Part shown: one piece after another, positions 34,030 through 47,418 of the stretch
Layout: every line of letters starts with the position of its first letter
How positions within the stretch are numbered: the first letter of the stretch is position 1
Assembly (NCBI RefSeq): GCF_034479375.1
Contig: NZ_CP140155.1
Coordinates: 868,001-932,000, forward strand
DNA: 64,000 nt
Direction: 5' to 3'
DNA from: Rhodopseudomonas palustris
Lineage (GTDB): Bacteria > Pseudomonadota > Alphaproteobacteria > Rhizobiales > Xanthobacteraceae
Position numbers and translations under genes: made by a program
Notes under the pieces: generated by a model
Databases searched by the model: none
Told to the model about the DNA's origin: nothing
The model's input: only the letters and a program-made list of their open reading frames with translations

Positions 34030-35358
34030 GTGACGTTTCGGGCAATCATCTTCGGCTCGCTGGCGGCGATCGGCGTCGCCGTGTCGGGAGCTGCGGCGCA
34101 GCAAAGCGGGCCGGTTCCGGTCTCCGCGACGCAGCCGGACTACGATGCGCTGTTCGCGCAGATGTATCAGCAGCCGGCCGATCTCGACGTCAGCTTCAAA
34201 TTCGCGCGCGCGGCGGTCGAGCGCGGCGACTACGAGGCGGCGATCGGCGCGCTGGAGCGGATGCTGTTCTTCAATCCCGATCTGCCGCGGGTGAAGCTCG
34301 AACTCGGCGTGCTGTATTTCAAGCTCGCGTCCTACGAGATCGCGCGCGGCTATCTGATCGACGCGATCAAGGGCGGCAACGTGCCCGACGACATCCGCGT
34401 CCAGGTGATGGCCTATCTCGCCGAGATCGATCGCCGGCTGTCGAAATACGAGTACAGCGTGTTCCTGCACGCCGGCATGCGCTATCAGACCAACGCCAAT
34501 ATCGGCCCGAACGGCTTGCAGGTGCGCGCGCTCGGGCAGGAGGCGATTCTCGATCCGAGCTTCGGCCGCAAGCCGGACTGGAGCACGTTCCAGACCGTCG
34601 CGGCGAGCTACGCCTACAAGCTCAATCTGCGCGGCGACGCGATCGAGACGACGTTCCTGGGCCTGAATTCGCGGCAGATGACGCTGAGCCAGTTCAACCT
34701 GGGCTTTGTCGAGATCACCGCCGGCCATCGCGTCGGCCTCGGTCAGAATTCGTCGTTCAAGTATTACGGCATCGGCGACAAGGTCTGGCTCGGCAATTAC
34801 AGCTACTTCAACGCGCTCGGCGGCGGCCTGTCGGCGCGCACGCAGCTCGGCGGCCTCGGCATGGTCGAGGGCTATGTCGAGACGCGGCACCGCCGCTTCA
34901 GCGATTCGACCTATTTCCCGACCGCCGGCAGCCAGACCGGCGACCTGCTGACAGCGGCGGTGCTGACCGATTTCCGCTGGGGCGGGGTGCACTGGACCAC
35001 CCGCGCCGGCTTCGACGGCAACAAGGCGATCGCCGACTACAACAGCTACAAGCGCTATTCGATCGACGTCGCGTTGCCGATCGAGTTCGTCGCGACGGTG
35101 TTCGGCGCGCAGCGCGCTTTCGTGTTCGCGCCGACGGCGGGGTTCAGCCAGGCCAATTACGAAGCGCCGAATTTCATCGTCGATCCGGTGATCGTGCGGC
35201 GTGACCAGGAATATCGCTACGGCGCGATCTTCGATGCGCAACTGATCGACAATATCGGGCTGCGCACGCAGGTGACCTACACCAAGATCGACTCCAATCT
35301 GCCCAACTACCGCACCAACAATCTGTCGGCCTCGATCGGCCCGACGCTGCGTTTCTGA
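34030..35358 (+). CDS. SLAM-like outer-membrane translocator (TPR plus beta-barrel)
   Basis: 442 residues from a GTG start. A signal peptide ends SGAAAQ at about residue 24. Residues ~40-135 form TPR-like helices (ARAAVERGDYEAAIGALERM, LGVLYFKLASYEIARGYL). From about 140 on the protein is an amphipathic beta-barrel ending in the outer-membrane signature SIGPTLRF. This architecture is that of the surface lipoprotein assembly modulator (Slam, type XI secretion) family, which moves proteins with TbpB-like barrels to the cell surface. The next gene, 11 bases away, encodes just such a barrel. Confidence 0.7.
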   Translation: MTFRAIIFGSLAAIGVAVSGAAAQQSGPVPVSATQPDYDALFAQMYQQPADLDVSFKFARAAVERGDYEAAIGALERMLFFNPDLPRVKLELGVLYFKLASYEIARGYLIDAIKGGNVPDDIRVQVMAYLAEIDRRLSKYEYSVFLHAGMRYQTNANIGPNGLQVRALGQEAILDPSFGRKPDWSTFQTVAASYAYKLNLRGDAIETTFLGLNSRQMTLSQFNLGFVEITAGHRVGLGQNSSFKYYGIGDKVWLGNYSYFNALGGGLSARTQLGGLGMVEGYVETRHRRFSDSTYFPTAGSQTGDLLTAAVLTDFRWGGVHWTTRAGFDGNKAIADYNSYKRYSIDVALPIEFVATVFGAQRAFVFAPTAGFSQANYEAPNFIVDPVIVRRDQEYRYGAIFDAQLIDNIGLRTQVTYTKIDSNLPNYRTNNLSASIGPTLRF

Positions 35359-35369
35359 GGAGATCGGCG

Positions 35370-37109
35370 ATGCGACGGATTTTGCGACAGCGGATCGGGC
35401 AGGGGACGATGGCGGCGCTGGCCGCGGCCATGCTGTCCGGCAGCGCGCTCGCGCAGGAAGTCGGCAAGGCTTCGGCGGTCAATCCCAACGCCACCGCCAA
35501 CATGCGGACCATCACCATCGGCGCGTCGATCACCCACAAGGAGCGGATCCGGACCACCAATGCGGGCTCGGTGCAGTTGCTGTTCATCGACAAGACCTCG
35601 ATGACGATCGGCCCGAACAGCGATCTGACGATCGACGAATACGTCTATGATCCGAACGCCGGCAGCGGCAAGCTGGCGGCGACGCTCGGCAAAGGCGCGC
35701 TGCGCTTCGTCGGCGGCCAGATCAGCCACACCGGCGACGCCGAGATCAAGACCGCGTCCGCCACCGTCGGCATCCGCGGCGGCGTGGCGCTGATCGGCGC
35801 CAACCACGTCTATGCCGGCTACGGCTCTTCGACGGTCAGCTCCGGCGGATCGACCGTGACGCTCGGGGCCGGCGAATACACCTCGCTGCAGGGCGGCCAG
35901 CCGCCGTCGCCGCCCGGCCCGCCGCCGCCGAACTTCGTTCTGAACCAGATCCAGATGTTCCAGAGCGGCAGCGGCCAGACCGGCGGCGTCGCCCGCGGCG
36001 CAGCGTCCCCGGGCAACGTCCAGCGCGCCGAGAACCGCGCCACCGGCACGCCGGGCGGTGCGGTGGCCGGCTCGCTGACGCCGACGCCTCCGCCGCCGGC
36101 GATCCCGCCGATCAACCAGGCGGCGTCGACGCTGAATCAGTCGGTGCAGAATTCGACGCAGACCGCGGCGGCCGAGCGGACGGCGCGGGACATTTCGCCG
36201 GACGCCGGCAATCCGCGGCCGTCGCTGACGCTGTCGGGCTTCCTCGGCGGGCTGATGCACACCGTCGTCAATGGATCGACCTACAACACGCCGGCTTCGA
36301 CCGGCACCGCGGTCGGGACCGCCACGATCGCGCTCGACGCGGCCGGAAACCGCGTGCAGGCGAATCTCAGCGGCGAGGTCGCGCATGGCCCGAACACATA
36401 CTATCTGCCGACGACCTTCGACTATCAGTTCGGCTCGACGGATCCGAGCCTCGATGCCCAGAGCGCCTACGGCGACTACAACAATTTCGGCGCGGCGGCG
36501 GCGCATGACAAGAGCGGCCATCCGCTGTCCAAGATCAACGATCTTCCGATCACCAATCAGACCGGCGCCATGCTCACCGTCACCCGCGAGCAGGCGCGCT
36601 ATTACGCGACCGAGAACGGCTCGACGACGACGAATTTCTGCGAGTGCGACTACACCCGCTGGGGGCTATGGGCGAGCCAGAGCACGCAATATTCCTATTT
36701 CGACAGCATCGTCGGCTTCTGGGTCGCCGGCCGTCCGACCACCGCGGGCGAGGTCCCGCTGAGCGGGCAGGCGACCTACAGCGGCCACGTTGTCGCGGCG
36801 ATCGAGAACCAGAGCGATACCTACGTCGCGACCGGCAATTTCCAAAACACGGTGAATTTCGGCAACCGCACCGGCGCCGTCACCGTGACTGGCCTCGACA
36901 ACACCAACTATGCGGGCCAGGTGCAGTTCATGCAGGATCCGCGAAATTTCGCCGGCTCGCTCGCCGGCGATGCGGGCGCGCGGCAGATGGCGCTGACCGG
37001 CAGCTTCTTCCGCGGCGTGGCCGGGCCGGCCAGCGAGATGGGCGGCAGCGTGTCGATCACCGGCACCAACTATCTCGGCGGCGGCATCTTCGCCGCGCAG
37101 GTGAAGTAA
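35370..37109 (+). CDS. Exported FecR-domain protein with C-terminal TbpB-like barrel (putative Slam substrate)
   Basis: 579 residues. A signal peptide ends SGSALAQ (~29). A FecR domain covers ~45-155 (RIRTTNAGSVQLLFIDKTSM, TASATVGIRGGVALI). A Pro-rich linker is at ~175-250. The C-terminal third matches the transferrin-binding-protein barrel: ATYSGHVVAAI, NFGNRTGAVTV, LTGSFFRGVAGPASEMGG and the end GGGIFAAQVK. There is no membrane anchor and no lipobox, so it would be a soluble secreted protein. Directly follows the SLAM-like gene, so the pair is probably translocator plus cargo. FecR domains otherwise act in surface signalling; its ligand here is unknown. Confidence 0.7.
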   Translation: MRRILRQRIGQGTMAALAAAMLSGSALAQEVGKASAVNPNATANMRTITIGASITHKERIRTTNAGSVQLLFIDKTSMTIGPNSDLTIDEYVYDPNAGSGKLAATLGKGALRFVGGQISHTGDAEIKTASATVGIRGGVALIGANHVYAGYGSSTVSSGGSTVTLGAGEYTSLQGGQPPSPPGPPPPNFVLNQIQMFQSGSGQTGGVARGAASPGNVQRAENRATGTPGGAVAGSLTPTPPPPAIPPINQAASTLNQSVQNSTQTAAAERTARDISPDAGNPRPSLTLSGFLGGLMHTVVNGSTYNTPASTGTAVGTATIALDAAGNRVQANLSGEVAHGPNTYYLPTTFDYQFGSTDPSLDAQSAYGDYNNFGAAAAHDKSGHPLSKINDLPITNQTGAMLTVTREQARYYATENGSTTTNFCECDYTRWGLWASQSTQYSYFDSIVGFWVAGRPTTAGEVPLSGQATYSGHVVAAIENQSDTYVATGNFQNTVNFGNRTGAVTVTGLDNTNYAGQVQFMQDPRNFAGSLAGDAGARQMALTGSFFRGVAGPASEMGGSVSITGTNYLGGGIFAAQVK

Positions 37110-37134
37110 TCGCGCCGCCGGCCGGACCGCCGGT

Positions 37135-37560
37135 TCAGAACCGATGCCCCAGCGGGGTGGCGGAGTTGGACACGGAAGCGGCCTGTTGCGGGGCCAGCCC
37201 CATGCTCGGCGGCACGTAGCGAGCGGTGGCGGTGGCCTCGGCCCTTGTCGCCGGATCGACCAGCTCGACCGCGACTTTCAACTCGTCGGGCGACGGCGTG
37301 ACCGCGCGGATCGTGGCGGAGCGATCGCCGATTACGCGCCGGGCGGCTGCGGTCGAAACCGCGGCGCGGCCTGCCGGGGTCTGGTGATTGCTGGCGGCGA
37401 GAGCGTGGACACCGGCGATCGCGGCTTCGTCGGCAATCTGCTGCAATGGCGGATGGCCGGTCGCCCGCGTCGTGCCGGCATAGATCGTGATGGCGGCCAG
37501 CGGCAGCGCCAGCAGTACGGCCAGCGGGGCCATAAGCCGTTTGGAGCCGATCCGACGCAT
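37135..37560 (-). CDS. Small membrane-anchored protein, TadG-like N-terminal region
   Basis: 141 residues from an ATG with GGAGG seven bases upstream. An N-terminal membrane segment (APLAVLLALPLAAITIYAG) precedes DEAAIAGVHALAASNHQ, which resembles the start of TadE/TadG-like Flp pilus pseudopilins. The remainder is extracytoplasmic with beta-strand-like sequence. No other tad genes are nearby. It is convergent with the FecR-domain gene. Function unknown. Confidence 0.55.
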   Translation of the reverse strand: MRRIGSKRLMAPLAVLLALPLAAITIYAGTTRATGHPPLQQIADEAAIAGVHALAASNHQTPAGRAAVSTAAARRVIGDRSATIRAVTPSPDELKVAVELVDPATRAEATATARYVPPSMGLAPQQAASVSNSATPLGHRF

Positions 37561-37842
37561 CGCATGACCTCCGTTGTCGCGCAACTGCCCGGACGATGCT
37601 AGGCGTCGTCCAGTTCGCGCCGGTTAAAGCGGTGGCGGGCCGTGACTGATCTTTCTAAACATCGCCACGGGCCGGTAACGGCCCGTGATGCAAATTTCAC
37701 GGACCCGTCCACGATCAGGTAACGTTCCGTCGATGCGCCAGTTCCCGGATAGCTCACTCCTCTCGTTGTTGCGCCGCCGCAGACTGCGTTGCGAAGACGC
37801 GGGCGTGAGCAGCGGCCGCGGGCTTTGCGGGGAGGCGCTGCG

Positions 37843-40131
37843 ATGCGCCGCCTGAACGCTTCGACGCAGCCGATCTGGAACGGGTTGCTACGTGGCCGGG
37901 CGCGGCTGCGCCGCTGGATGCGCAGTAAATCCATGCGCGCGGTGGCCGCGGCGCTGCTGACGCTGCTGGCGCTGACCGCGTTGCGCGCCTACGACCCGCG
38001 GCTGGTCCACGAAACCAAGGAACGCGCCTTCGACGCCTATCAGCGGCTGTCGCCGCGGCCGCATGCCGATCTGCCGGTGCGCATCGTCGATATCGACGAG
38101 GCTTCGCTCGCCGCCTTCGGGCAATGGCCGTGGCCGCGCACCCGGCTCGCCGCGCTGACCAAGCGGCTCGGCGACCTCGGCGCCGGCGTGGTCGCCTACG
38201 ACATCATCTTCTCGGAGCCGGACCGCACCACGCCGGGCCGCCTCGCAACCGAGCTCGGCGACGCCGATCTGCCGGACCGCGATCTCACCGTGGCGCTGCT
38301 GAAGAGCCTGCCGGATCACGATGCGAGCTTCGCCCAGGCGATGCAGAAGACGCCGACGGTGCTCGGCTTCGCCGCGATCCGATTGGCCAACGCCACGCGG
38401 CCGTCGGTGAAGGCGGGCCTCGCCGCGGTCGGCGTGACGCCCGCCGCCGTGCTGCCGCCGTTCCGGGGCGCGGTCTCCAATCTTCCGCTGCTCGACGAGG
38501 CCGCCGCCGGAATCGGCGCGATCAATCTGTCGGCGCGCGACCGGTCCGGCGTGGTCCGCCGGCTGCCGATGCTGATGTCCGACGGCGCGCGCGTCTATCC
38601 GAGCCTGGCGATCGAGGCGCTGCGCGTGGTGCAGAACCAGAAGGGCATCGTGGTGCGCGGCACCGGCGCCAGCGGCGACGCCGACACCGGCCGCGCCGCG
38701 CTGCTCGACATGCGGGTCGGCCAGTTCAAGCTGCCGCTGACGCATGACGGCGAGGCCTGGGTGTATTTCAACCGCGACCGCCCCGACCGTTACGTGTCGG
38801 TCAAGGACGTGCTCGACCCGGCGAAGGAGGCCGAGATGCGCGAGCAGCTCGAGGGCATGATCGTGCTCGTCGGCACCTCCGCCGCCGGCCTTCTGGATGC
38901 GCGGGCGACGCCGCTCGGCCAGGTGGTGCCGGGCGTCGCGATCCAGGCGCAGATGATCGAGCAGATCATCGCGCAGGATTTCATCGAGCGGCCGGACTGG
39001 GCCGACGGCTTCGAGATTGTGCTGACGCTGCTGCTCGGCTCGCTGGTCGCGGCGCTGCTGCTGATCGCCGGCGCGCGGTTCTCGCTGATCGCCTGCGGCG
39101 TGGTGTTTCTCGCCGCGATCGGTGGATCGTGGATCGCGTTCTCGCAGTTCCGGCTGCTGATCGATCCGGTGTATCCGTCGCTGGCGACGCTGCTGACCTA
39201 TGTGGCGGTCGAGCGCGTGCTGCACATGGCGTCCGACCGCGAGAAGAGATTCGCGCGTCAGGCGTTCGGGCAATATCTCGCCCCCGAGCTGCTGGCCAAG
39301 CTCGAGCAGGCGCCCGACGCGATGCGGCTCGGCGGCGAGACCCGCGACCTCAGCGTGATGTTCATGGACGTGCGCGGCTTCACGCCGATCTCGGAGACGC
39401 TGAGCGCGACCGAGTTGGTGGATTTCATCAACACGCTGCTGTCGCCATTGTCGGATGCGATCCAGGACGAGCTCGGCACCATCGACAAATACATCGGCGA
39501 CTCGATCATGGCGTTCTGGAACGCGCCGGTCGACGTGCCGGATCACGCCGCACGCGCCTGCCGCGCCGCGCTGAAGATGCGGGCGGTGGTCGAACAGCTC
39601 AACGACGCCGACGCGTTCGGCTTCGCCGCGCGCGGGCTCGCCGATCCGGTGGTGCGGATCGGTGTCGGCATCAACACCGGCGCGGCCTGCGTCGGAAACA
39701 TGGGCTCGGCCAAACGGTTCAACTATTCGGCGATGGGCGACGTGGTCAACGTCGCGGCACGGATCGAGAGCGCGTCGAAGAGCTTCGGCACCGACCTGTT
39801 AGTCTCCGAGGACGTCGCCCGCGCCGCACCGAACATCGCGCTGCTCGAAGCCGGCGAGATCATGCTGAAAGGCAAATCCCGCCCGACGCGGCTCTACGCG
39901 CTCGCCGGCGACGAGACGTTCGCCGCGACGGCGCAATGCGCCGAACTGAAGCGGCGGCACCGGCTGCTGCTGGAGGCGCTGGCCGCAGCCGACGCGACGG
40001 CCGCGGCCGACGCAGTCGCGGCCTGCCGCACCGCCGCGCCGCCGACGCTGGCGGGGCTGTATGATCACTTCGCGGAACGGGTGGGAGCGATCGGTGGGGT
40101 GCAGGCAACGGCCGCAATGCGGGCGCGGTGA
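37843..40131 (+). CDS. Adenylate/guanylate cyclase with CHASE2 sensor domain
   Basis: 762 residues. After an N-terminal membrane segment the extracytoplasmic CHASE2 domain covers ~60-385 (VRIVDIDEASLAAFGQWPWPR, VAYDIIFSEPD). Three membrane segments at ~390-470 lead to a class III cyclase domain (VMFMDVRGFTPISETLS, TIDKYIGDSIMAFWNAP, YSAMGDVVNVAARIES). Metal-binding Asp residues are present in both usual positions. It should make cAMP or cGMP in response to an outside signal. GGGGAGG precedes the ATG. CHASE2 cyclases and FecR-domain proteins often co-occur, as here. Confidence 0.9.
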   Translation: MRRLNASTQPIWNGLLRGRARLRRWMRSKSMRAVAAALLTLLALTALRAYDPRLVHETKERAFDAYQRLSPRPHADLPVRIVDIDEASLAAFGQWPWPRTRLAALTKRLGDLGAGVVAYDIIFSEPDRTTPGRLATELGDADLPDRDLTVALLKSLPDHDASFAQAMQKTPTVLGFAAIRLANATRPSVKAGLAAVGVTPAAVLPPFRGAVSNLPLLDEAAAGIGAINLSARDRSGVVRRLPMLMSDGARVYPSLAIEALRVVQNQKGIVVRGTGASGDADTGRAALLDMRVGQFKLPLTHDGEAWVYFNRDRPDRYVSVKDVLDPAKEAEMREQLEGMIVLVGTSAAGLLDARATPLGQVVPGVAIQAQMIEQIIAQDFIERPDWADGFEIVLTLLLGSLVAALLLIAGARFSLIACGVVFLAAIGGSWIAFSQFRLLIDPVYPSLATLLTYVAVERVLHMASDREKRFARQAFGQYLAPELLAKLEQAPDAMRLGGETRDLSVMFMDVRGFTPISETLSATELVDFINTLLSPLSDAIQDELGTIDKYIGDSIMAFWNAPVDVPDHAARACRAALKMRAVVEQLNDADAFGFAARGLADPVVRIGVGINTGAACVGNMGSAKRFNYSAMGDVVNVAARIESASKSFGTDLLVSEDVARAAPNIALLEAGEIMLKGKSRPTRLYALAGDETFAATAQCAELKRRHRLLLEALAAADATAAADAVAACRTAAPPTLAGLYDHFAERVGAIGGVQATAAMRAR

Positions 40132-40228
40132 CCAACACACCAACACTGACGTGCAAGTATAGAATTCTGAGCGGTCCCGCCGATGGAATGCTGCCTAACC
40201 AGGGGTGGCGGGATCGATGATGATAGGA

Positions 40229-41110
40229 TCAGCCGGCCGGCCACAGGGCCCAGCCGCAAGCAACTCCCCAAAGCAATACCGTGACCAGCAATTGCCAGTC
40301 GGTAAGCAGAGCATCAGTAGGGGACTCGCCGCCATCGAACGCTTCAACGACGAACCAGTAGCGAAACAGGCCGAACAGGACCAGAGGGACCGTGATCACT
40401 AGCGCTGGCTTGGCCGACATCACGAACATGCTGTAGAACAACAGCGCTCCGGTTGCGGACATCTCAGCATATCGATCTACCAGCGCCACGGAATATCTTT
40501 CAAGCACCTTGCGCCCTTCCGTTCCGCTTCGACTGAGTTCTTGACGTCGCTTTACAGCGGCGAGGTACAACGCGAGACAGAGCGTGGTGATGAACATCCA
40601 TGATGATACTGGAACATCCAGCGCCATCGCTCCCGCGTATACCCGCAGGACAAAGCCGATAGCGATGACGAAGATGTCGACAACAGGCTGATGTTTCAGG
40701 ACGAACGTGTAAGCAAGATTGAGTGCGAGATAAGCAGCAATAACCAGTATGACTTTAGGCGCAACAAGCCATCCGAATACCAAGATGCAATAAAGGCATC
40801 CAAGCAGGATGAAGGCTGCGGCCGTCGAGACGCTTCCCGCGGCCAAAGGTCTGCTCTTGCACTTCGTCGGATGACGACGGTCGCGCTGAACGTCGTGCAT
40901 ATCGTTGATGATGTAGGTTGCCGACGAAGCCACGCAGAACAGCAGAAAGGCCGACAGCGCCTGGCTGATCGCTGTCGGATTCAAGAACTCTCCCGCAAAA
41001 ATCAGCGGTGCCAGAACGAAGCCGTTCTTCACCCACTGCTTCAGCCGCATCAGCTTGATCAGACCTAATATCTGCGCTACTGGCGGGTGAGCTGGAATGG
41101 CATTGTGCAT
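40229..41110 (-). CDS. UbiA-family prenyltransferase, DPPR synthase-like
   Basis: 293 residues with eight or nine membrane segments. The first Asp-rich motif is NDMHDVQRDRRHPTKCKSRP and the second region reads YTFVLKHQPVVDIFVIAIGF, both closer to decaprenyl-phosphate phosphoribosyltransferase (Rv3806c, also NoeC of Azorhizobium) than to quinone-synthesis UbiA. It would attach phosphoribose to polyprenyl phosphate. The divergent DprE1- and DprE2-like genes support this. The start MHNAIPAHP avoids overlap with gtrA. No ring-hydroxybenzoate or haem genes are near. Confidence 0.75.
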   Translation of the reverse strand: MHNAIPAHPPVAQILGLIKLMRLKQWVKNGFVLAPLIFAGEFLNPTAISQALSAFLLFCVASSATYIINDMHDVQRDRRHPTKCKSRPLAAGSVSTAAAFILLGCLYCILVFGWLVAPKVILVIAAYLALNLAYTFVLKHQPVVDIFVIAIGFVLRVYAGAMALDVPVSSWMFITTLCLALYLAAVKRRQELSRSGTEGRKVLERYSVALVDRYAEMSATGALLFYSMFVMSAKPALVITVPLVLFGLFRYWFVVEAFDGGESPTDALLTDWQLLVTVLLWGVACGWALWPAG

Positions 41111-41130
41111 CGTAAAATCACTTTGGATAA

Positions 41131-41158
41131 AGTTGCCGGTAAATTGATGCCGGCAACT
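41131..41158. promoter_or_regulatory. Perfect palindrome in the UbiA/GtrA divergent promoter
   Basis: AGTTGCCGG (41131-41139) and CCGGCAACT (41150-41158) form a 9-bp inverted repeat with a 10-base spacer. It sits midway in the 86-bp gap between two divergent starts, where an operator would be expected. No regulator family is indicated. Confidence 0.45.
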
Positions 41159-41196
41159 GAGATTGATAAGACAATTACTGCGAACAGATATGGTCA

Positions 41197-41610
41197 ATGG
41201 AAGCTTCAACAAAACTAGCCATTAGTTACGCCATATTTGCCGTGATGGCCACCGCAATCAACATCGCTGCGCAAGACGCTGTTGTTCGCCTGTTTGAAGG
41301 TGCGATCGCGGTCGCGGCTTCAGTGGTCGTGGGTACTGCAGCCGGGCTGATGGCAAAATACCTTCTCGACAAGCGTTATATTTTTCGATTTCGGACCCGC
41401 GGTGCGGCCGACGACGCGCGGATATTCGCCCTTTATAGTGCGATGGGTGTAGCGACGACCCTCGTGTTCTGGCTGGTGGAGTTCGGCTTTCACGTTGCCT
41501 TCGGATCCAAGGAGATGCGCTACGTCGGCGGCGTCATCGGATTGGCAATTGGCTATATTGCGAAATACCACCTCGACAAGCGCTTTGTCTTCCGTGCGGA
41601 GGCTCCATGA
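41197..41610 (+). CDS. GtrA-like membrane protein
   Basis: 137 residues with four membrane segments. The paired motifs AKYLLDKRYIFRF and AKYHLDKRFVF are the GtrA-family (PF04138) signature. GtrA proteins are linked to flipping or presenting polyprenyl-phosphate-linked sugars; the mycobacterial relative Rv3789 works with the arabinan pathway. Its TGA overlaps the DprE1-like ATG (ATGA), so the two are coupled. Confidence 0.85.
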   Translation: MEASTKLAISYAIFAVMATAINIAAQDAVVRLFEGAIAVAASVVVGTAAGLMAKYLLDKRYIFRFRTRGAADDARIFALYSAMGVATTLVFWLVEFGFHVAFGSKEMRYVGGVIGLAIGYIAKYHLDKRFVFRAEAP

Positions 41611-42908
41611 TCCCGGTCTCCTCTTGGGGGCGTCTCAGTGCGGACCCACATCATGTCATCGCTCTGAAAGACCCATTTCAGATACAGTCCGTCGTTAGCC
41701 GGGAGCCGCTCCCCGGAATCGCTCACGGGATGGGACGGAGCTATGGCGATGTCTGCTTGAATCCCGAGGGGGCGCTCTGGACGACAACGGGTCTCGATCA
41801 TCTCGTTTCGTTCGACATCGCCACCGGTCGTCTGGTTTGCGAAGCAGGGGTTCTGCTTCGGGACATCCAGCGCCTTGCGATACCGCGTGGATGGAGCTTG
41901 CCGGTTACACCTGGCACGCAGATGGTGACCGTTGGGGGGGGCATCGCCAACGACGTGCATGGCAAGAACCATCACCTCTGCGGGACATTCGGCGACCACG
42001 TCCAGCGCATTACGCTGATCCGGACCAATGGCGAGATCGTCCAATGCGGTCCGGTCACGAACCCGGAGTGGTTTTCGGCATCGGTGGGAGGTTTGGGGTT
42101 GACGGGGGTCATTGCGCAAGCCGAGATCCAACTGCGTCCTGTTGCTGGCCCATGGTTGGAAACCGAGACCGTTCCCTATGGGAGCTTGGATGAATTCTTT
42201 CAGCTTGCCGAGGAATCCGAGTCCGGCTGGGAGCATGCGGTGTCGTGGGTCGACTGCGTTGCGGGGGACAACACTCGTGGATTGTTCATGCGCGGAAGCA
42301 GTGTCGCGAGCAGTCACGGCCCGCCCCCCAAGCCGCGCTCACTGACCATGCCCGTCGTCCCGCCGGTATCACTGGTCAATCGGCTGACTCTGCGGGCGTT
42401 CAACAATGGCTATCATTATCTGAATATGCGAAAGCCCGGCCGGAAGATCGCTCACTATGAGACCTTCTTCTATCCGCTCGATAATCTGCAGGGTTGGAAC
42501 CGGATGTATGGCCCCACAGGCTTCTTCCAGTACCAGAGCGTATTTCCCCCGGAGAGCGGTCGGGATGCAGTGCAGGCGATGCTGAAAGATATTGCCGGTG
42601 CAGGAGAGGGTTCCTTTCTCGCAGTCCTGAAGACCTTCGGCGACCGCGCGCCTGCAGGGATGCTCAGCTTCCCGAAGTCCGGCGTGACCCTCGCGCTGGA
42701 CTTTCCGAACAATGGTCCGCGGACGCACAAGCTCTTCGAACGTCTCGATGCGATCGTCCGCGAAGCCAAGGGACGGATCTACCCGGCCAAGGATGCGCGC
42801 ATGCCGCGTGACCTGTTCGAGGTGGGCTACCCCCGCCTCTCGGAATTTCTGGAGTATCGGGACCCCGGCATCAGTTCCGCACTGTCACGTCGGTTGATGG
42901 GAAGTTGA
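41607..42908 (+). CDS. FAD-linked oxidase, DprE1-like (decaprenylphosphoryl-ribose 2'-oxidase)
   Basis: 433 residues of the vanillyl-alcohol-oxidase fold. GMGRSYGDVCLN and GGGIANDVHGKNHHLCGTFGDH are close to the FAD-binding loops of mycobacterial DprE1, and TGFFQYQSVFP, then FPKSGVTLALDFP, match its substrate side with the catalytic-type Lys. DprE1 oxidises the 2'-OH of decaprenylphosphoryl ribose. From memory of the family, the position equivalent to DprE1 Cys387 falls in TLALDFP and is Ala. The DprE2-like gene starts right after the stop. Confidence 0.8.
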   Translation: MIPVSSWGRLSADPHHVIALKDPFQIQSVVSREPLPGIAHGMGRSYGDVCLNPEGALWTTTGLDHLVSFDIATGRLVCEAGVLLRDIQRLAIPRGWSLPVTPGTQMVTVGGGIANDVHGKNHHLCGTFGDHVQRITLIRTNGEIVQCGPVTNPEWFSASVGGLGLTGVIAQAEIQLRPVAGPWLETETVPYGSLDEFFQLAEESESGWEHAVSWVDCVAGDNTRGLFMRGSSVASSHGPPPKPRSLTMPVVPPVSLVNRLTLRAFNNGYHYLNMRKPGRKIAHYETFFYPLDNLQGWNRMYGPTGFFQYQSVFPPESGRDAVQAMLKDIAGAGEGSFLAVLKTFGDRAPAGMLSFPKSGVTLALDFPNNGPRTHKLFERLDAIVREAKGRIYPAKDARMPRDLFEVGYPRLSEFLEYRDPGISSALSRRLMGS

Positions 42909-43661
42909 ATGAGCAGTAGGAAACGAATTGTCATCGTGGGCGCGACATCGGCGATTGCCGAGAACTGCGCCAGATTGTGGGTCGAGAGCGGGCCGGCCGA
43001 TCTTATCCTGCTCGGTCGAGACCCGCAGCGCCTGCAGAGGACAGCGACGGATCTAGGTGTTCGCAGCCCGCAATCCGACATCCGGACGGTGCCGGCCGAA
43101 TTTCTCGACGTCGTCGCCATCGAGGCGGCCGTGGATGACATCATCGCACTGGGCGAGGTGGACCTCGTGCTGATCGCGCACGGCTCTTTGCCGGACCAAA
43201 ACGGATGCCAGAGCGATCTGAAGGCCTGTCGCGACGCTCTCGAGATCAACGGCGTGTCGCCAGTTCTCTTTGCGGAGGCGTTTGCCAGACGTATGGCCAA
43301 GGCCGATCGCGGCACGATCGCTCTGATCGGATCTGTGGCGGGCGACCGCGGACGCAAATCGAACTATGTCTACGGCGCGGCCAAGGGATTGGTCACACGC
43401 TACGCTCAAGGGCTGCAGCACCGCTTCGCCGGGACGGGGCTCAACGTCGTGCTGATCAAACCCGGTCCCACTGATACGCCCATGACGGCGCACCTCAAGG
43501 GGCAGGGCGCAAAGCTGGCATCTGTGGAGAGCGTGGCTAGCGAGATTGTCGCGGGGATAGACGCCGGAAGGGCGACTATCTATGCGCCGGGCAAATGGAA
43601 AATCATCATGAACATCGTGCGGCACATTCCGTCGGTGATCTTCAATAGATTGGAGATCTGA
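42909..43661 (+). CDS. SDR reductase, DprE2-like (decaprenylphosphoryl-2-keto-ribose reductase)
   Basis: 250-residue short-chain dehydrogenase. The NAD(P) motif is VGATSAIAENCARLW, and the DprE2-typical stretch SVAGDRGRKSNYVYGAAKG contains the active-site Ser, Tyr and Lys. With the DprE1-like oxidase it would epimerise polyprenyl-phospho-ribose to the arabinose form. The start codon directly follows the DprE1-like stop. The C-terminus (KWKIIMNIVRHIPSVIF) is hydrophobic/basic as in DprE2 proteins, suggesting membrane contact. Confidence 0.8.
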   Translation: MSSRKRIVIVGATSAIAENCARLWVESGPADLILLGRDPQRLQRTATDLGVRSPQSDIRTVPAEFLDVVAIEAAVDDIIALGEVDLVLIAHGSLPDQNGCQSDLKACRDALEINGVSPVLFAEAFARRMAKADRGTIALIGSVAGDRGRKSNYVYGAAKGLVTRYAQGLQHRFAGTGLNVVLIKPGPTDTPMTAHLKGQGAKLASVESVASEIVAGIDAGRATIYAPGKWKIIMNIVRHIPSVIFNRLEI

Positions 43662-43780
43662 GGGGCTTCATTAATGCGTCGGACCGGTCGAGACTGGTGA
43701 GGGGCAGTGGTTTTTGGTCGATAGCCTCGTTCTGCCAGCTGGAGTACCCGTGGGTGGGGCTAAATTAAGGAATTGAGGAC

Positions 43781-45802
43781 GTGAATTCATCGCTTTCGCT
43801 TCGAAAGAACCCCATCGCGTTGGCAGTCGCTGCTATGGCGTGGATTGTACTGATATGCTTTGTATCGTATCTTTATGTCTTTGATCACGTGTCACTTTTG
43901 CCTTATTTGGTGGATGATTCGTTCTTCTATCTGCAATCGGCGAAGATGTTCGTTCAGCTTGGCGTCCCCTCGCTCGATGGCGTGGCGCAGACGAACGGAT
44001 TTCACCCGTTGTGGTTTCTGATCGTAGCGGCTTTGACGTATATGTGGACCGGGTTTTTGCACATTCATGTTGTGCAGATAACGCTTCATATTTCTGCGCT
44101 CTTGCTGCTCTTCAAGCTGTCTTTGCGAGTACAAGACACAATCAATCCATACTACCTTCTGATTCTTCTAATCTGTTATCCGCCATTGCTGATTACGAGT
44201 TTCAACAATCTCGAAACCTCGATTTTCATCTTTCTAATGGCAATCAATTTGATGGTGTTTGCGTCGTCATCCTTCGACAGGCGTCTTGACTATTTCACGC
44301 AAGGCGTTCTTTTTGGCCTGCTATTCCTCGCCAGGACGGACAGTGTCTTTTTTACCCTCGCATTTTCGGTGGCGATTGTTGCGCGGACTGGATTGCATCG
44401 TCGAGTATTTGGCTTTTCTTTGTTTGGGGTTGTTGGTGCTTTGATCGTGATTGCGCCGTACCTATTACTCAATCTGAGTTCATTTGGCGGAATACTTCAA
44501 AGTTCTGGCAAGACATTTCTGCTGTTTGAGCAGGCATACCAGTCATTTCATGGATCACCGCACGCTGTCTGGACGCGCAGGATCGCTGCATTTGGCGACT
44601 TTATATGGAGACTGATGGGAGAACGCCTAGGTGTCCATCCATCTCTGTTCTATTCGACTTGGATGGCAGTCGGTTGGATATTGTTCCGCGGTCGGTCGTG
44701 TGATGGTGGTAAGATAGTTCTAACCGTATGGCTTGCGTTTTCGGCCTACTTGGCAATGCTGTGCGGTTCCAATGCGTTCAGATTAGTTTGGCGCGAATGG
44801 TACTCGACTCCATTCTATCTAATGTTCATTTTCAACATTGGAGCGTTGCTGACGTTACTTGACTCGGTGGTGAGGCCGTGGTTCGGGCGAATAGCGCTCG
44901 TGGTAGTGGTGACTCTGGCCTGGTTTACGTCAGGCAGCATAGTGCGAAACGGCTTGTGGCCCTTGCAGAAAATTGCACTCCGAGATCTCGCGCTGTTGAC
45001 CTCGTCGTTCCCGCCGGGCTCCCGCATCGGGTACACGGACGCCGGCATCGCCGCCTATTATTCCCCTCATCTGAAAATCACCAACTTGGATGGCGCTGCC
45101 AACAATGAAGTCCAGCCGTTTATCGCGCGGGGAAGACTGTTCGACTACATTTCTTCGCGAGGCATCGACGACTTCGTCTCAGGTCGCCCGTGGCATTGGC
45201 GCAATTGGCTGATGGGATTTGGCTCGGGCTTCCAATACGCACATCGTGGCGGTGGATTGCACCACGTTCTTAAAACCAATGAGGAGGTGGTAGCGAACTA
45301 CTATCGGTCGTCGATCGGAATTGCCGATTTTGACTTCGAACGATGGCTGGGAGCGGGATGGTCTTATCCGGTGCCGAGACGAGACCCCTCGGTGGATGGC
45401 GCGTGGAGCAGCCCGTCGTACTCCGAACCTCCGACCGCCGAGTTCCTACGGGATGGGGTCTGGACGGATGGAAGCGAGGCGCACATCTACCTTCCGATTG
45501 CGCGCAACGTGAACTACGAGATGTCGCTGATGATGAAATCTGCGCCGATGATTGAAGGAGGGGTTCCTGTCCAGATTTACGTAGCGGATCGGCTGGTGCT
45601 CGATGCGAAGGTGACTGCGGTATCCGAGTGGTCGCCACTGAAAGTCAGAATTCAGGGGCAGCCGTCCGGCCTCATGACGGAGGTGACGCTGAAGATCGGA
45701 AAGACGGCAAATCCGAACAAGCTTGGACTGTCGAAAGATGCGCGCGATCTCGGCCTGAATATCGAGAGCATCTCGCTTCGGAAGATGGATGACGTCGACT
45801 AG
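43781..45802 (+). CDS. Large polytopic GT-C-like glycosyltransferase, candidate arabinosyltransferase
   Basis: 673 residues from a GTG start. About ten membrane segments fill the first 420 residues. The first extracytoplasmic loop carries D45-D46 (YLVDDSFFYLQSA) and TNGFHPLWF, a pattern of GT-C enzymes using polyprenyl-phosphate sugars. The last 250 residues are soluble and periplasmic with a beta-rich end. The gene is clearly more AT-rich than its surroundings. Position after the DprE1/DprE2-like genes suggests it uses the lipid-linked pentose, but the acceptor is unknown. Family assignment is by topology and motif only. Confidence 0.6.
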   Translation: MNSSLSLRKNPIALAVAAMAWIVLICFVSYLYVFDHVSLLPYLVDDSFFYLQSAKMFVQLGVPSLDGVAQTNGFHPLWFLIVAALTYMWTGFLHIHVVQITLHISALLLLFKLSLRVQDTINPYYLLILLICYPPLLITSFNNLETSIFIFLMAINLMVFASSSFDRRLDYFTQGVLFGLLFLARTDSVFFTLAFSVAIVARTGLHRRVFGFSLFGVVGALIVIAPYLLLNLSSFGGILQSSGKTFLLFEQAYQSFHGSPHAVWTRRIAAFGDFIWRLMGERLGVHPSLFYSTWMAVGWILFRGRSCDGGKIVLTVWLAFSAYLAMLCGSNAFRLVWREWYSTPFYLMFIFNIGALLTLLDSVVRPWFGRIALVVVVTLAWFTSGSIVRNGLWPLQKIALRDLALLTSSFPPGSRIGYTDAGIAAYYSPHLKITNLDGAANNEVQPFIARGRLFDYISSRGIDDFVSGRPWHWRNWLMGFGSGFQYAHRGGGLHHVLKTNEEVVANYYRSSIGIADFDFERWLGAGWSYPVPRRDPSVDGAWSSPSYSEPPTAEFLRDGVWTDGSEAHIYLPIARNVNYEMSLMMKSAPMIEGGVPVQIYVADRLVLDAKVTAVSEWSPLKVRIQGQPSGLMTEVTLKIGKTANPNKLGLSKDARDLGLNIESISLRKMDDVD

Positions 45803-45836
45803 ACGCTAAACGGCGCTTCACAATTCAATGCGTCGC

Positions 45837-47258
45837 TCACAACACCGAAACCGCCGCGGGGCGGGGGTCGTGCGCGCTGGGATCGGCGCAGGGAAGGGTG
45901 AAGCGGAACATCGTGCCGCCGGCGGGGGCGGGTTCGGCGTTGATCGAGCCGCCATGGGCCTGGATGATGGTCTGGGAGATCGACAGGCCGATACCCATGC
46001 CTTCGGGCTTGGTGGTCTCGAACGGCTGGAACATCCGGTCGGCGATCTGCGGATCGAGGCCGGGACCGGAATCGGCGACCACGACCTCGATCATGCAGTC
46101 CTCGACCGCCCGGCTGGTGATGGAGAGCATCCGTTCCGGCAGTTCGTGCATCGCCTCGAAGGCGTTGCGGATCAAATTGAGGAAGACCTGCTGCACCTGC
46201 ACCTTGTCGACCAGGACGCGATCGACCGCGGGATCGAGCGTCAGCGCGACGTCGACAGGGCGGTCGCGGGTGACAACGGAGGCGAGCGCCAGCGCGTCCT
46301 CGGCGATCGCGCGCAGGCTCTCGACGGTCTTGTCGGTCTCGCCGCGGCCGACGAATTCGCGTAGCCGCTGGATCACCGCGCCGGCACGCAGCGTCTGCTG
46401 CGCGGCCTTGTCGAGCGCGGCGCCGATCTTCGCCTTGTCGGGATGGCTGCTGGCCTCGACCAGCCGGCGCGAGCCCTGCACGTAGTTGGTGATCGCGCCG
46501 AGCGGCTGGTTGAGCTCGTGCGCCAGCGCGCTCGACATCTCGCCCATGGTGCTGAGACGCGCCACCCGCATCAATTCGGCCTGCAGGCTCTGCAGCCGCT
46601 GGTCGGCCTCCCGCTGGCGCGCCGCCGCGCGTTGATGCTCGAGCAGAAACGCCGCGATCGCGGCGCTGGCGACGGCGAGGATCAGCAGACATGCGGTGAT
46701 CAGCGCCGCGGCGAGGCTCTCGTGGTCGTGCCGCGACATGCGCTCGGCGAGCAGGGCCTGTTCGACGCGGGTCAGCGCTGACAGACTCGCTTCGACGCGT
46801 TCGGTGAGGCGGTCGGTGCGGGCCTGTTCGAGAATGTCGAGCGCCTCGCGGACACGCTCCGGCCCCAGTTCGATGACCCGCCCGAGCTGCGCGGTGCGCA
46901 TGTCGATCAACTGACGGAGATCGTCGACCTTGGCGACATGGTCGGGGTTGTCGGTGACGATCGAGCGCAGGCTGTCGAGCCGTGATGCCAGTGTGTCCCG
47001 CGTATGGTTGTAATTCTCGCGGTAGCTGTCGATGCCGGTGAGCAGATAGCCGCGCTCATTGGTCTCGGCTTCCAGCACCTCGCGCTGGATGCCTGAAATC
47101 GCCAGCAGGGCATCGTTGGTGTGCTGCACCCACGAGAAGCTGTCGCGCAGCCGCATCAGGTTCAGGATCAGCGCACCGGCGATGACAATGAACAGCAGCA
47201 GGGTGATGCCGAGCAGCCAGGGCGCGAGAGTTGAGTTTGAGAATGGTTTGCGGGTCAT
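45837..47258 (-). CDS. Sensor histidine kinase with CHASE3-like domain
   Basis: 473 residues. Membrane segments at about 14-35 and 180-205 flank a periplasmic helical domain with ETNERGYLLTGIDSYRENY, typical of CHASE3. The kinase core has the phospho-acceptor His in ALAHELNQPLGAITNYVQG, the N box NLIRNAFEAM, and the ATP-lid motifs DSGPGLDP and GMGIGLSIS; it is the FixL-like HisKA type. No PAS domain and no response regulator gene adjoins it, so its partner is unlinked. The ATG is chosen over a GTG two codons upstream. Confidence 0.9.
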   Translation of the reverse strand: MTRKPFSNSTLAPWLLGITLLLFIVIAGALILNLMRLRDSFSWVQHTNDALLAISGIQREVLEAETNERGYLLTGIDSYRENYNHTRDTLASRLDSLRSIVTDNPDHVAKVDDLRQLIDMRTAQLGRVIELGPERVREALDILEQARTDRLTERVEASLSALTRVEQALLAERMSRHDHESLAAALITACLLILAVASAAIAAFLLEHQRAAARQREADQRLQSLQAELMRVARLSTMGEMSSALAHELNQPLGAITNYVQGSRRLVEASSHPDKAKIGAALDKAAQQTLRAGAVIQRLREFVGRGETDKTVESLRAIAEDALALASVVTRDRPVDVALTLDPAVDRVLVDKVQVQQVFLNLIRNAFEAMHELPERMLSITSRAVEDCMIEVVVADSGPGLDPQIADRMFQPFETTKPEGMGIGLSISQTIIQAHGGSINAEPAPAGGTMFRFTLPCADPSAHDPRPAAVSVL

Positions 47259-47418
47259 CGGCACTGTTGTGAGCTGGGCTGGTCACCCTAGAGCGCGCGC
47301 GCGCCGAGCTCAATTGGAACCGCTGCGGCAACAGCCATCCGCGACGGAAGCGGGAGGTTGTCCCGCTCGCGTGGCATCCGCAGTGGCGAAAGCGACGCGT
47401 TTGCAGAGATGTGTGGTG

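Follow-up and report, generated by a model that had tools for sequence, protein, structure and literature searches.

In a stretch of 64,000 nucleotides from Rhodopseudomonas palustris (contig NZ_CP140155.1, positions 868,001 to 932,000; hereafter the window), we examined a block of five genes at 40229-45802 that probably directs the synthesis and transfer of lipid-linked D-arabinofuranose. The ubiA gene lies on the minus strand and is followed, all on the plus strand, by genes for a GtrA-family protein, a DprE1-type oxidase, a DprE2-type reductase and a GT-C membrane protein (see the table). An initial annotation of the DNA had proposed these five linked genes, and the linkage was confirmed, all five being open frames in the list of open reading frames (ORFs). 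The start of ubiA was set at the ATG at 41110; the listed ORF starts at a TTG at 41212.

Table. The putative arabinofuranose cassette, the island that carries it and the flanking genes (positions within the window).
Feature	Position	Strand	Basis
UbiA-type polyprenyl-phosphate phosphoribosyltransferase (DPPR/PPPR synthase), stand-alone form	40229..41110	-	NF008978 above cut-off; PDB 8j8j, E 1.4e-40; motif NDMHDVQRDRRHPTK
GtrA-family small membrane protein, probable lipid-linked-pentose flippase	41197..41610	+	PF04138, 35.9 bits; NF037976, 181 bits; flippase role by analogy
DprE1-type FAD oxidase (polyprenylphosphoryl-ribose 2'-oxidase)	41607..42908	+	Profile scores, PDB match, tree
DprE2-type short-chain reductase (2-keto intermediate to arabinose)	42909..43661	+	PRK07102, 243 bits, and NF053786, 160 bits, both below cut-off; PDB DprE2
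GT-C membrane glycosyltransferase with C-terminal CBM-like beta domain; probable arabinofuranosyltransferase	43781..45802	+	Model fold, motifs
Island, 5705 bp between stop codons of flank genes	40132..45836	.	GC; empty site in congeners; equivalent island in G011
Adenylate-cyclase-like flank gene	37789-40131	+	Named by recognition
Histidine-kinase-like flank gene	45837-47264	-	Named by recognition

The closest PDB structures of the UbiA protein, the oxidase and the reductase are all mycobacterial enzymes (8j8j and chains of DprE1 and DprE2). UbiA scored 214.7 bits against NF008978 (decaprenyl-phosphate phosphoribosyltransferase; cut-off 207) and fell under the cut-offs of the sister models NF008977 (233.4 versus 234) and NF008976 (166.9 versus 474). 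Its NDMHDVQRD stretch aligns to NDVRDVEAD of 8j8j, and the ND..D...D motif of polyprenyl phosphoribosyl synthases is present. GtrA was above its family cut-off in the profile scan. The oxidase reached 332.4 bits against the DprE1 equivalog model NF053785, below the cut-off of 500, as compared with 46 bits for the next model and 44 bits for a sugar-lactone-oxidase model; in the PDB, DprE1 was the best match at E 1.1e-69 versus 7.6e-11 for the next. A gulonolactone-type oxidase was ruled out on these profile and PDB scores. When aligned to M. smegmatis DprE1, the oxidase keeps the HGKNHH and AKD(A/S)R stretches, and the cysteine in the C-V-D-F-P stretch, the residue bound by benzothiazinone drugs, is replaced by alanine 363. 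There is one DprE1-type oxidase in the genome, four other matches to the DprE1 model scoring at most 55.2 bits, and in a tree of 23 rows (which included neither a gulonolactone oxidase nor mycobacterial DprE1) a 100/100 branch split 19 DprE1-type rows from those of the four remaining FAD oxidases. The oxidase is homologous to DprE1, with the same chemistry probable, but is not an equivalog by the NF053785 rule.

For the reductase, the DprE2 equivalog model NF053786 gave 160.1 bits (cut-off 250 not reached) and was outscored by the generic short-chain dehydrogenase/reductase (SDR) model PRK07102 at 242.9 bits, itself under its cut-off of 267. DprE2 was nevertheless the only PDB match at E<=1e-15, and a YxxxK motif is found at Y155/K159. 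The labels DprE1 and DprE2 are thus homology-based, with both models below their equivalog cut-offs. Even so, with DprE1 and DprE2 as nearest solved structures and the oxidase set apart in the tree, the donor pathway assigned by the initial annotation is well supported. We consider it quite unlikely that the enzymes act on another pentose, or halt at ribose or a keto-sugar, such that the transferred sugar is not arabinose. The low equivalog scores and the better score of the SDR model would fit such a scenario, as would the system of Kelly et al. 2024 (PMC11127046), where the pentose is set by the epimerase and the GT-C accepts ribose or xylose. However, DprE1- and DprE2-type enzymes are adjacent here with their motifs kept, and the exclusive structural match of the reductase also speaks for arabinose. 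The likely product of the cassette is polyprenyl-phosphate-D-arabinofuranose, for periplasmic use.

The GT-C protein has no Pfam or NCBIfam family, and a search of its sequence profile against the PDB gave no meaningful match. Its predicted structure was well matched to the GT-C glycosyltransferase fold by fold comparison, and its C-terminal tail (approximately residues 560-670) was modelled as a beta domain resembling a carbohydrate-binding module (CBM), with middling Z and model confidence. The name GT136 is absent from the list of fold matches, which carries no weight either way. The motifs DDSFFY and TNGFHPLW are common to distant relatives. The protein is a probable arabinofuranosyltransferase.

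Gene identity, linkage, conserved motifs, the GT-C and CBM-like folds of the model and the island nature of the block (see below) are directly supported. From these we infer the carrier lipid, the phosphatase, the flipping step, the product sugar and the acceptor, as follows. UbiA would move ribose-5-phosphate from phosphoribosyl pyrophosphate to undecaprenyl phosphate, an unlinked phosphatase would strip the 5'-phosphate, and DprE1 together with DprE2 would invert C2 to give undecaprenyl-phosphate-D-arabinofuranose. GtrA would aid membrane crossing of the lipid-linked arabinose, and GT-C would move the arabinofuranose in the periplasm onto a surface glycan, likeliest lipopolysaccharide O-antigen or another polysaccharide; the carbohydrate-binding-like domain may hold the acceptor glycan. 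We think it likely that this scheme is correct as a whole, that is, that a horizontally spread cassette makes undecaprenyl-phosphate-D-arabinofuranose and its GT-C transfers the sugar to a surface glycan. Transfer of D-arabinose to a surface molecule of some kind, as the initial annotation suggested, is a reasonable expectation.

The acceptor is probably a surface glycan. An unchanged donor pathway could also serve a protein, either a pilin (as TfpW does in Pseudomonas) or flagellin, and protein-acting GT-C enzymes were among the best fold matches of our model. There is precedent for this in Pseudomonas paraeruginosa, where type IV pilins are arabinosylated by means of an island-encoded donor pathway (PMC12369383). 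Furthermore, in G011, a congener with the same cassette, a 969-aa flagellin-like ORF (L094:5490-8399) and an FlbT-like ORF (L094:4816-5466), both named by eye, lie beyond the histidine kinase. We regard a protein acceptor as unlikely, given that this flagellin neighbor is found in one of two cassette genomes, that the CBM-like tail resembles polysaccharide-acting enzymes and that no pilin or flagellin gene was recognised among ORFs at 34-52 kb of the window (the rest of the genome was not searched for them). A small lipid or secreted signal, such as a hopanoid or a Nod-factor-like molecule, is very unlikely as acceptor: noeC, noeH and noeO of Azorhizobium, also an alphaproteobacterium, have been proposed for the D-arabinose precursor of Nod factor (PMC2443382), but there are no nod-like genes in the block and a polysaccharide-binding-like tail would be unneeded.

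The initial annotation correctly remarked that a phosphatase for the phosphoribosyl intermediate is absent; none is fused to UbiA or linked in the block. We surveyed how other cassettes are built, using the best 80 named DprE1 loci of at least 581 confirmed and classing the UbiA partner by tblastn. A stand-alone UbiA (at least 55% identity to that of the window, on the strand opposite dprE1) was found in 30 of the 80 loci, and a UbiA with an N-terminal HAD-like domain in 37, of which 36 have it on the dprE1 strand and one (L081) on the opposite strand. The remaining 13, which include contig edges and actinobacteria, had neither form by these criteria. The HAD-like domain was recognised in seven representatives from their D-L-D-G-T-L motif, and elsewhere through tblastn with these seven as queries. 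As a possible HAD-UbiA phosphatase source elsewhere in the genome of the window, a 485-aa frame (G000:C1:2309473) was considered and dropped; it reads by eye as 4-hydroxybenzoate-prenyltransferase-like.

A gene for DUF212 (divergent PAP2, PF02681; label checked by Pfam in two loci) follows ubiA in 18 of the 30 stand-alone cassettes. Whole-genome searches recovered DUF212 from all 18 of the corresponding genomes and from none of the 12 others; several of these genomes are metagenome-assembled and their completeness is not stated, and two of the 12 loci (L043, L057) are near contig ends. Fisher's test on 18/0 versus 0/12 gives 1e-8, a value that is overstated, the rows being related. The 18 cassettes are beta- and gammaproteobacterial by title. 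Of the 12, titles identify seven as alphaproteobacterial; the other five, of which four are labelled Enhydrobacter and one only Proteobacteria, are assigned to that class from the tree, where they sit among the alphaproteobacterial rows of Reyranella, Rhodospirillales and Asaia. DUF212 was likewise not found in genome-wide searches of this genome and four congeners. In our careful tree, and likewise across bootstrap trees, the 14 alphaproteobacterial stand-alone rows form three groups (11 rows in one clade, the window paired with G011, and Pseudochelatococcus) and need three changes, which makes it probable, although not certain, that DUF212 absence arose repeatedly; well-supported branches alone force one change only. 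None of the 37 HAD-type loci holds a DUF212 gene. Of the 35 HAD-type genomes searched (all but those of L063 and L071), 4 have one elsewhere, with no ubiA match within approximately 1.5 kb, and DUF212 is thus not exclusive to the pathway.

From these sequence patterns, it is likely that the 5'-phosphatase is provided by either the HAD-like domain or DUF212, a candidate role that would make DUF212 the likely partner of stand-alone UbiA. We read the alphaproteobacterial stand-alone cassettes as using some unlinked phosphatase, for which the two PAP2 genes of this genome, both outside the window, are candidates (HAD phosphatases were not searched for). No conserved phosphatase gene stood out near ubiA in alphaproteobacterial loci, which are GC-rich and where gene calling was crude and frames often wrong, so that such a gene may have escaped notice. 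Among the papers listed, no title or abstract opening linked DUF212 to arabinose; a prior proposal is possible in Harvey 2011, who is said to have described homologues of Rv3806c, Rv3790 and Rv3791 in the Pseudomonas D-arabinofuranose pathway. An alternative to which we give only a slight chance is that the alphaproteobacterial UbiA product is epimerised while still phosphorylated and that the GT-C, as a new transferase family, transfers arabinofuranose-5-phosphate to give a charged decoration, in which case the phosphatase was lost, probably repeatedly, since it was unneeded. We favor an unlinked phosphatase. Pseudomonas employs a separate phosphatase, which belongs to another structural family (Kelly et al. 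2024, PMC11127046).

The same survey points to exchange of transferases. In 30 of the 80 loci, a multi-helix protein (a frame of at least 200 aa within 400 bp, with five or more hydrophobic stretches) lies directly behind dprE2, and these 30 together with the GT-C of the window fell into 12 clusters at E 1e-6. The GT-C of the window clustered with the proteins of L032 and L044, both behind dprE2, whose DprE1 enzymes are placed elsewhere in the tree than that of the window; this transferase type therefore either joined the module on two or more occasions or was exchanged. The cassette thus appears, on sequence comparison, to be a portable donor module with many interchangeable transferases. Two features of other loci might be mentioned. 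The multi-helix protein of L013 (4280-6253) has hexapeptide-repeat acyltransferase matches in its C-terminal half, unlike six others that were scanned. In five HAD-type loci (L015, L033, L036, L056 and L064), a trio of approximately 312-327, 428-450 and 132-135 aa follows the GT-C; the first is NAD-epimerase-like by eye and the last GtrA-sized, and the trio could modify the pentose further.

The block probably constitutes a small island acquired from other bacteria. Its genes have 52-62% GC versus 65.4% for the window, and the flanking cyclase and kinase genes are convergent. Among 11 cassette-free congeners with both flanks found, the two stops are at most 31 bp apart in eight and 113, 317 and 550 bp apart in the other three; a search for island remnants in the gaps of G008, G013 and G005 gave short, chance-level matches only. 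Three further genomes had no cyclase match in the stretch examined (G009, G014) or a weak partial one (G007). The corresponding distance is 5705 bp in the window and 5692 bp in G011, where the island occupies the equivalent site with 70-86% protein identity, much like three flank genes (77-85%). No integrase is present among the five genes of the island. G012, whose kinase is the closest to that of the window (97% identity), lacks the island, and G011, from another clade, has it, which implies either several losses or movement between members of the genus through recombination in the flanking regions. It is highly improbable that the island is silent or decaying and without function. Its patchiness (the stand-alone-UbiA version is in 2 of 16 genus genomes) and the lack of a linked phosphatase would be consistent with decay, but none of the five frames is interrupted and G011 retains the island with flank-like conservation.

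At E<=1e-60, DprE1 had a match in 37 of 200 genomes searched, own included. Four of the 16 genus genomes are among these, namely that of the window, G011 with 80% identity, and both G008 and G013 with approximately 50%. All 20 further loci, drawn from the 35 genomes with a match that are left once that of the window (G000) and G011 are set aside, have HAD-UbiA nearby (weakly in L147), and L138 has no dprE2 match. G008 (L132) and G013 (L141) carry an HAD-UbiA-type DprE1/DprE2 cassette elsewhere in the genome, and two pathway versions thus exist within the genus.

The DprE1 tree bears on where the cassette came from. Separate from the HAD-type enzymes found in its own family, the enzyme of the window groups with those of Microbulbifer, Sideroxydans, Delftia, Serpentinimonas and Pseudochelatococcus, at a support of 95 in a quick tree and 82/82 in the careful tree; the 23-row tree joins it to L005, L007, L010, L014, L020, L036 and G011 at 99/98. 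The forks that put it among beta- and gammaproteobacterial enzymes have bootstraps of 82-86 in the careful tree, below the quick tree's 95, and the smallest starred set there unites the window with G011 alone; a placement among beta/gammaproteobacterial enzymes thus has moderate support. The term "mycobacterial-type" used in the initial annotation fits the chemistry but misleads on origin, the closest cassettes being beta- and gammaproteobacterial. The best explanation is a horizontally spread donor-plus-transferase cassette.

With regard to known systems, enzyme activities equal to those of the mycobacterial pathway (Rv3806c, Rv3807c, Rv3789, Rv3790, Rv3791, Emb/Aft) are predicted here. Unlike that pathway, however, the cassette scores under the DprE1/DprE2 cut-offs, presumably uses undecaprenyl as carrier, has one transferase in the block and has no linked phosphatase. 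Gram-negative versions are already published (PMC11127046; PMC12369383; PMC2443382), and the cassette is therefore less novel than the initial annotation held. Kelly et al. 2024 (PMC11127046) describe in Citrobacter a synthase of the UbiA type fused to a phosphatase, together with an epimerase and a GT-C that bears a sugar-binding domain, and also report DprE1/E2 homologues in candidate systems for arabinofuranose-containing glycans. The three-component pentofuranose system of Citrobacter youngae O1/O2 resembles ours, in which a UbiA-type synthase, a putative small membrane flippase and a predicted GT-C with a C-terminal, putatively sugar-binding domain are likewise combined. In this prototype, however, an HAD phosphatase is fused to UbiA, the flippase is called MATE family by the authors, the transferase is GT136 and DprE1/E2 are not part of the system, whereas the cassette here has a stand-alone UbiA, a GtrA flippase (by analogy) and no linked phosphatase. 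The Pseudomonas (para)aeruginosa pathway is, by description, likewise Gram-negative and island-encoded, and PSPA7_6245-6251 serve pilin arabinosylation (PMC12369383); TfpW is found at the pilin locus, whereas our GT-C is inside the donor cassette with no pilin recognised nearby. In Azorhizobium, noeC, noeH and noeO, proposed as D-arabinose precursor genes (PMC2443382), are by description similarly alphaproteobacterial but belong to a nodulation locus with Nod factor as acceptor.

Literature searches on DprE1 and Rhodopseudomonas turned up, by title, only fungal VAO oxidases, and those on Rhodopseudomonas arabinose, lipopolysaccharide and O-antigen gave no title on such a cassette. What is fresh is the phosphatase pattern and a transferase outside any Pfam or NCBIfam family. 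Reaction-centre genes are present in all 16 genus genomes. The cassette adds a purple photosynthetic alphaproteobacterium to those bacteria in which decoration of the cell surface with D-arabinofuranose is probable.

Ahead of the island, TPR-like, FecR-like and CHASE2-type adenylate cyclase genes, named by recognition, stand in a row at 34030-40131. The FecR-like gene also adjoins the cyclase gene in G011 and in 11 of 14 other stretches from congeners.

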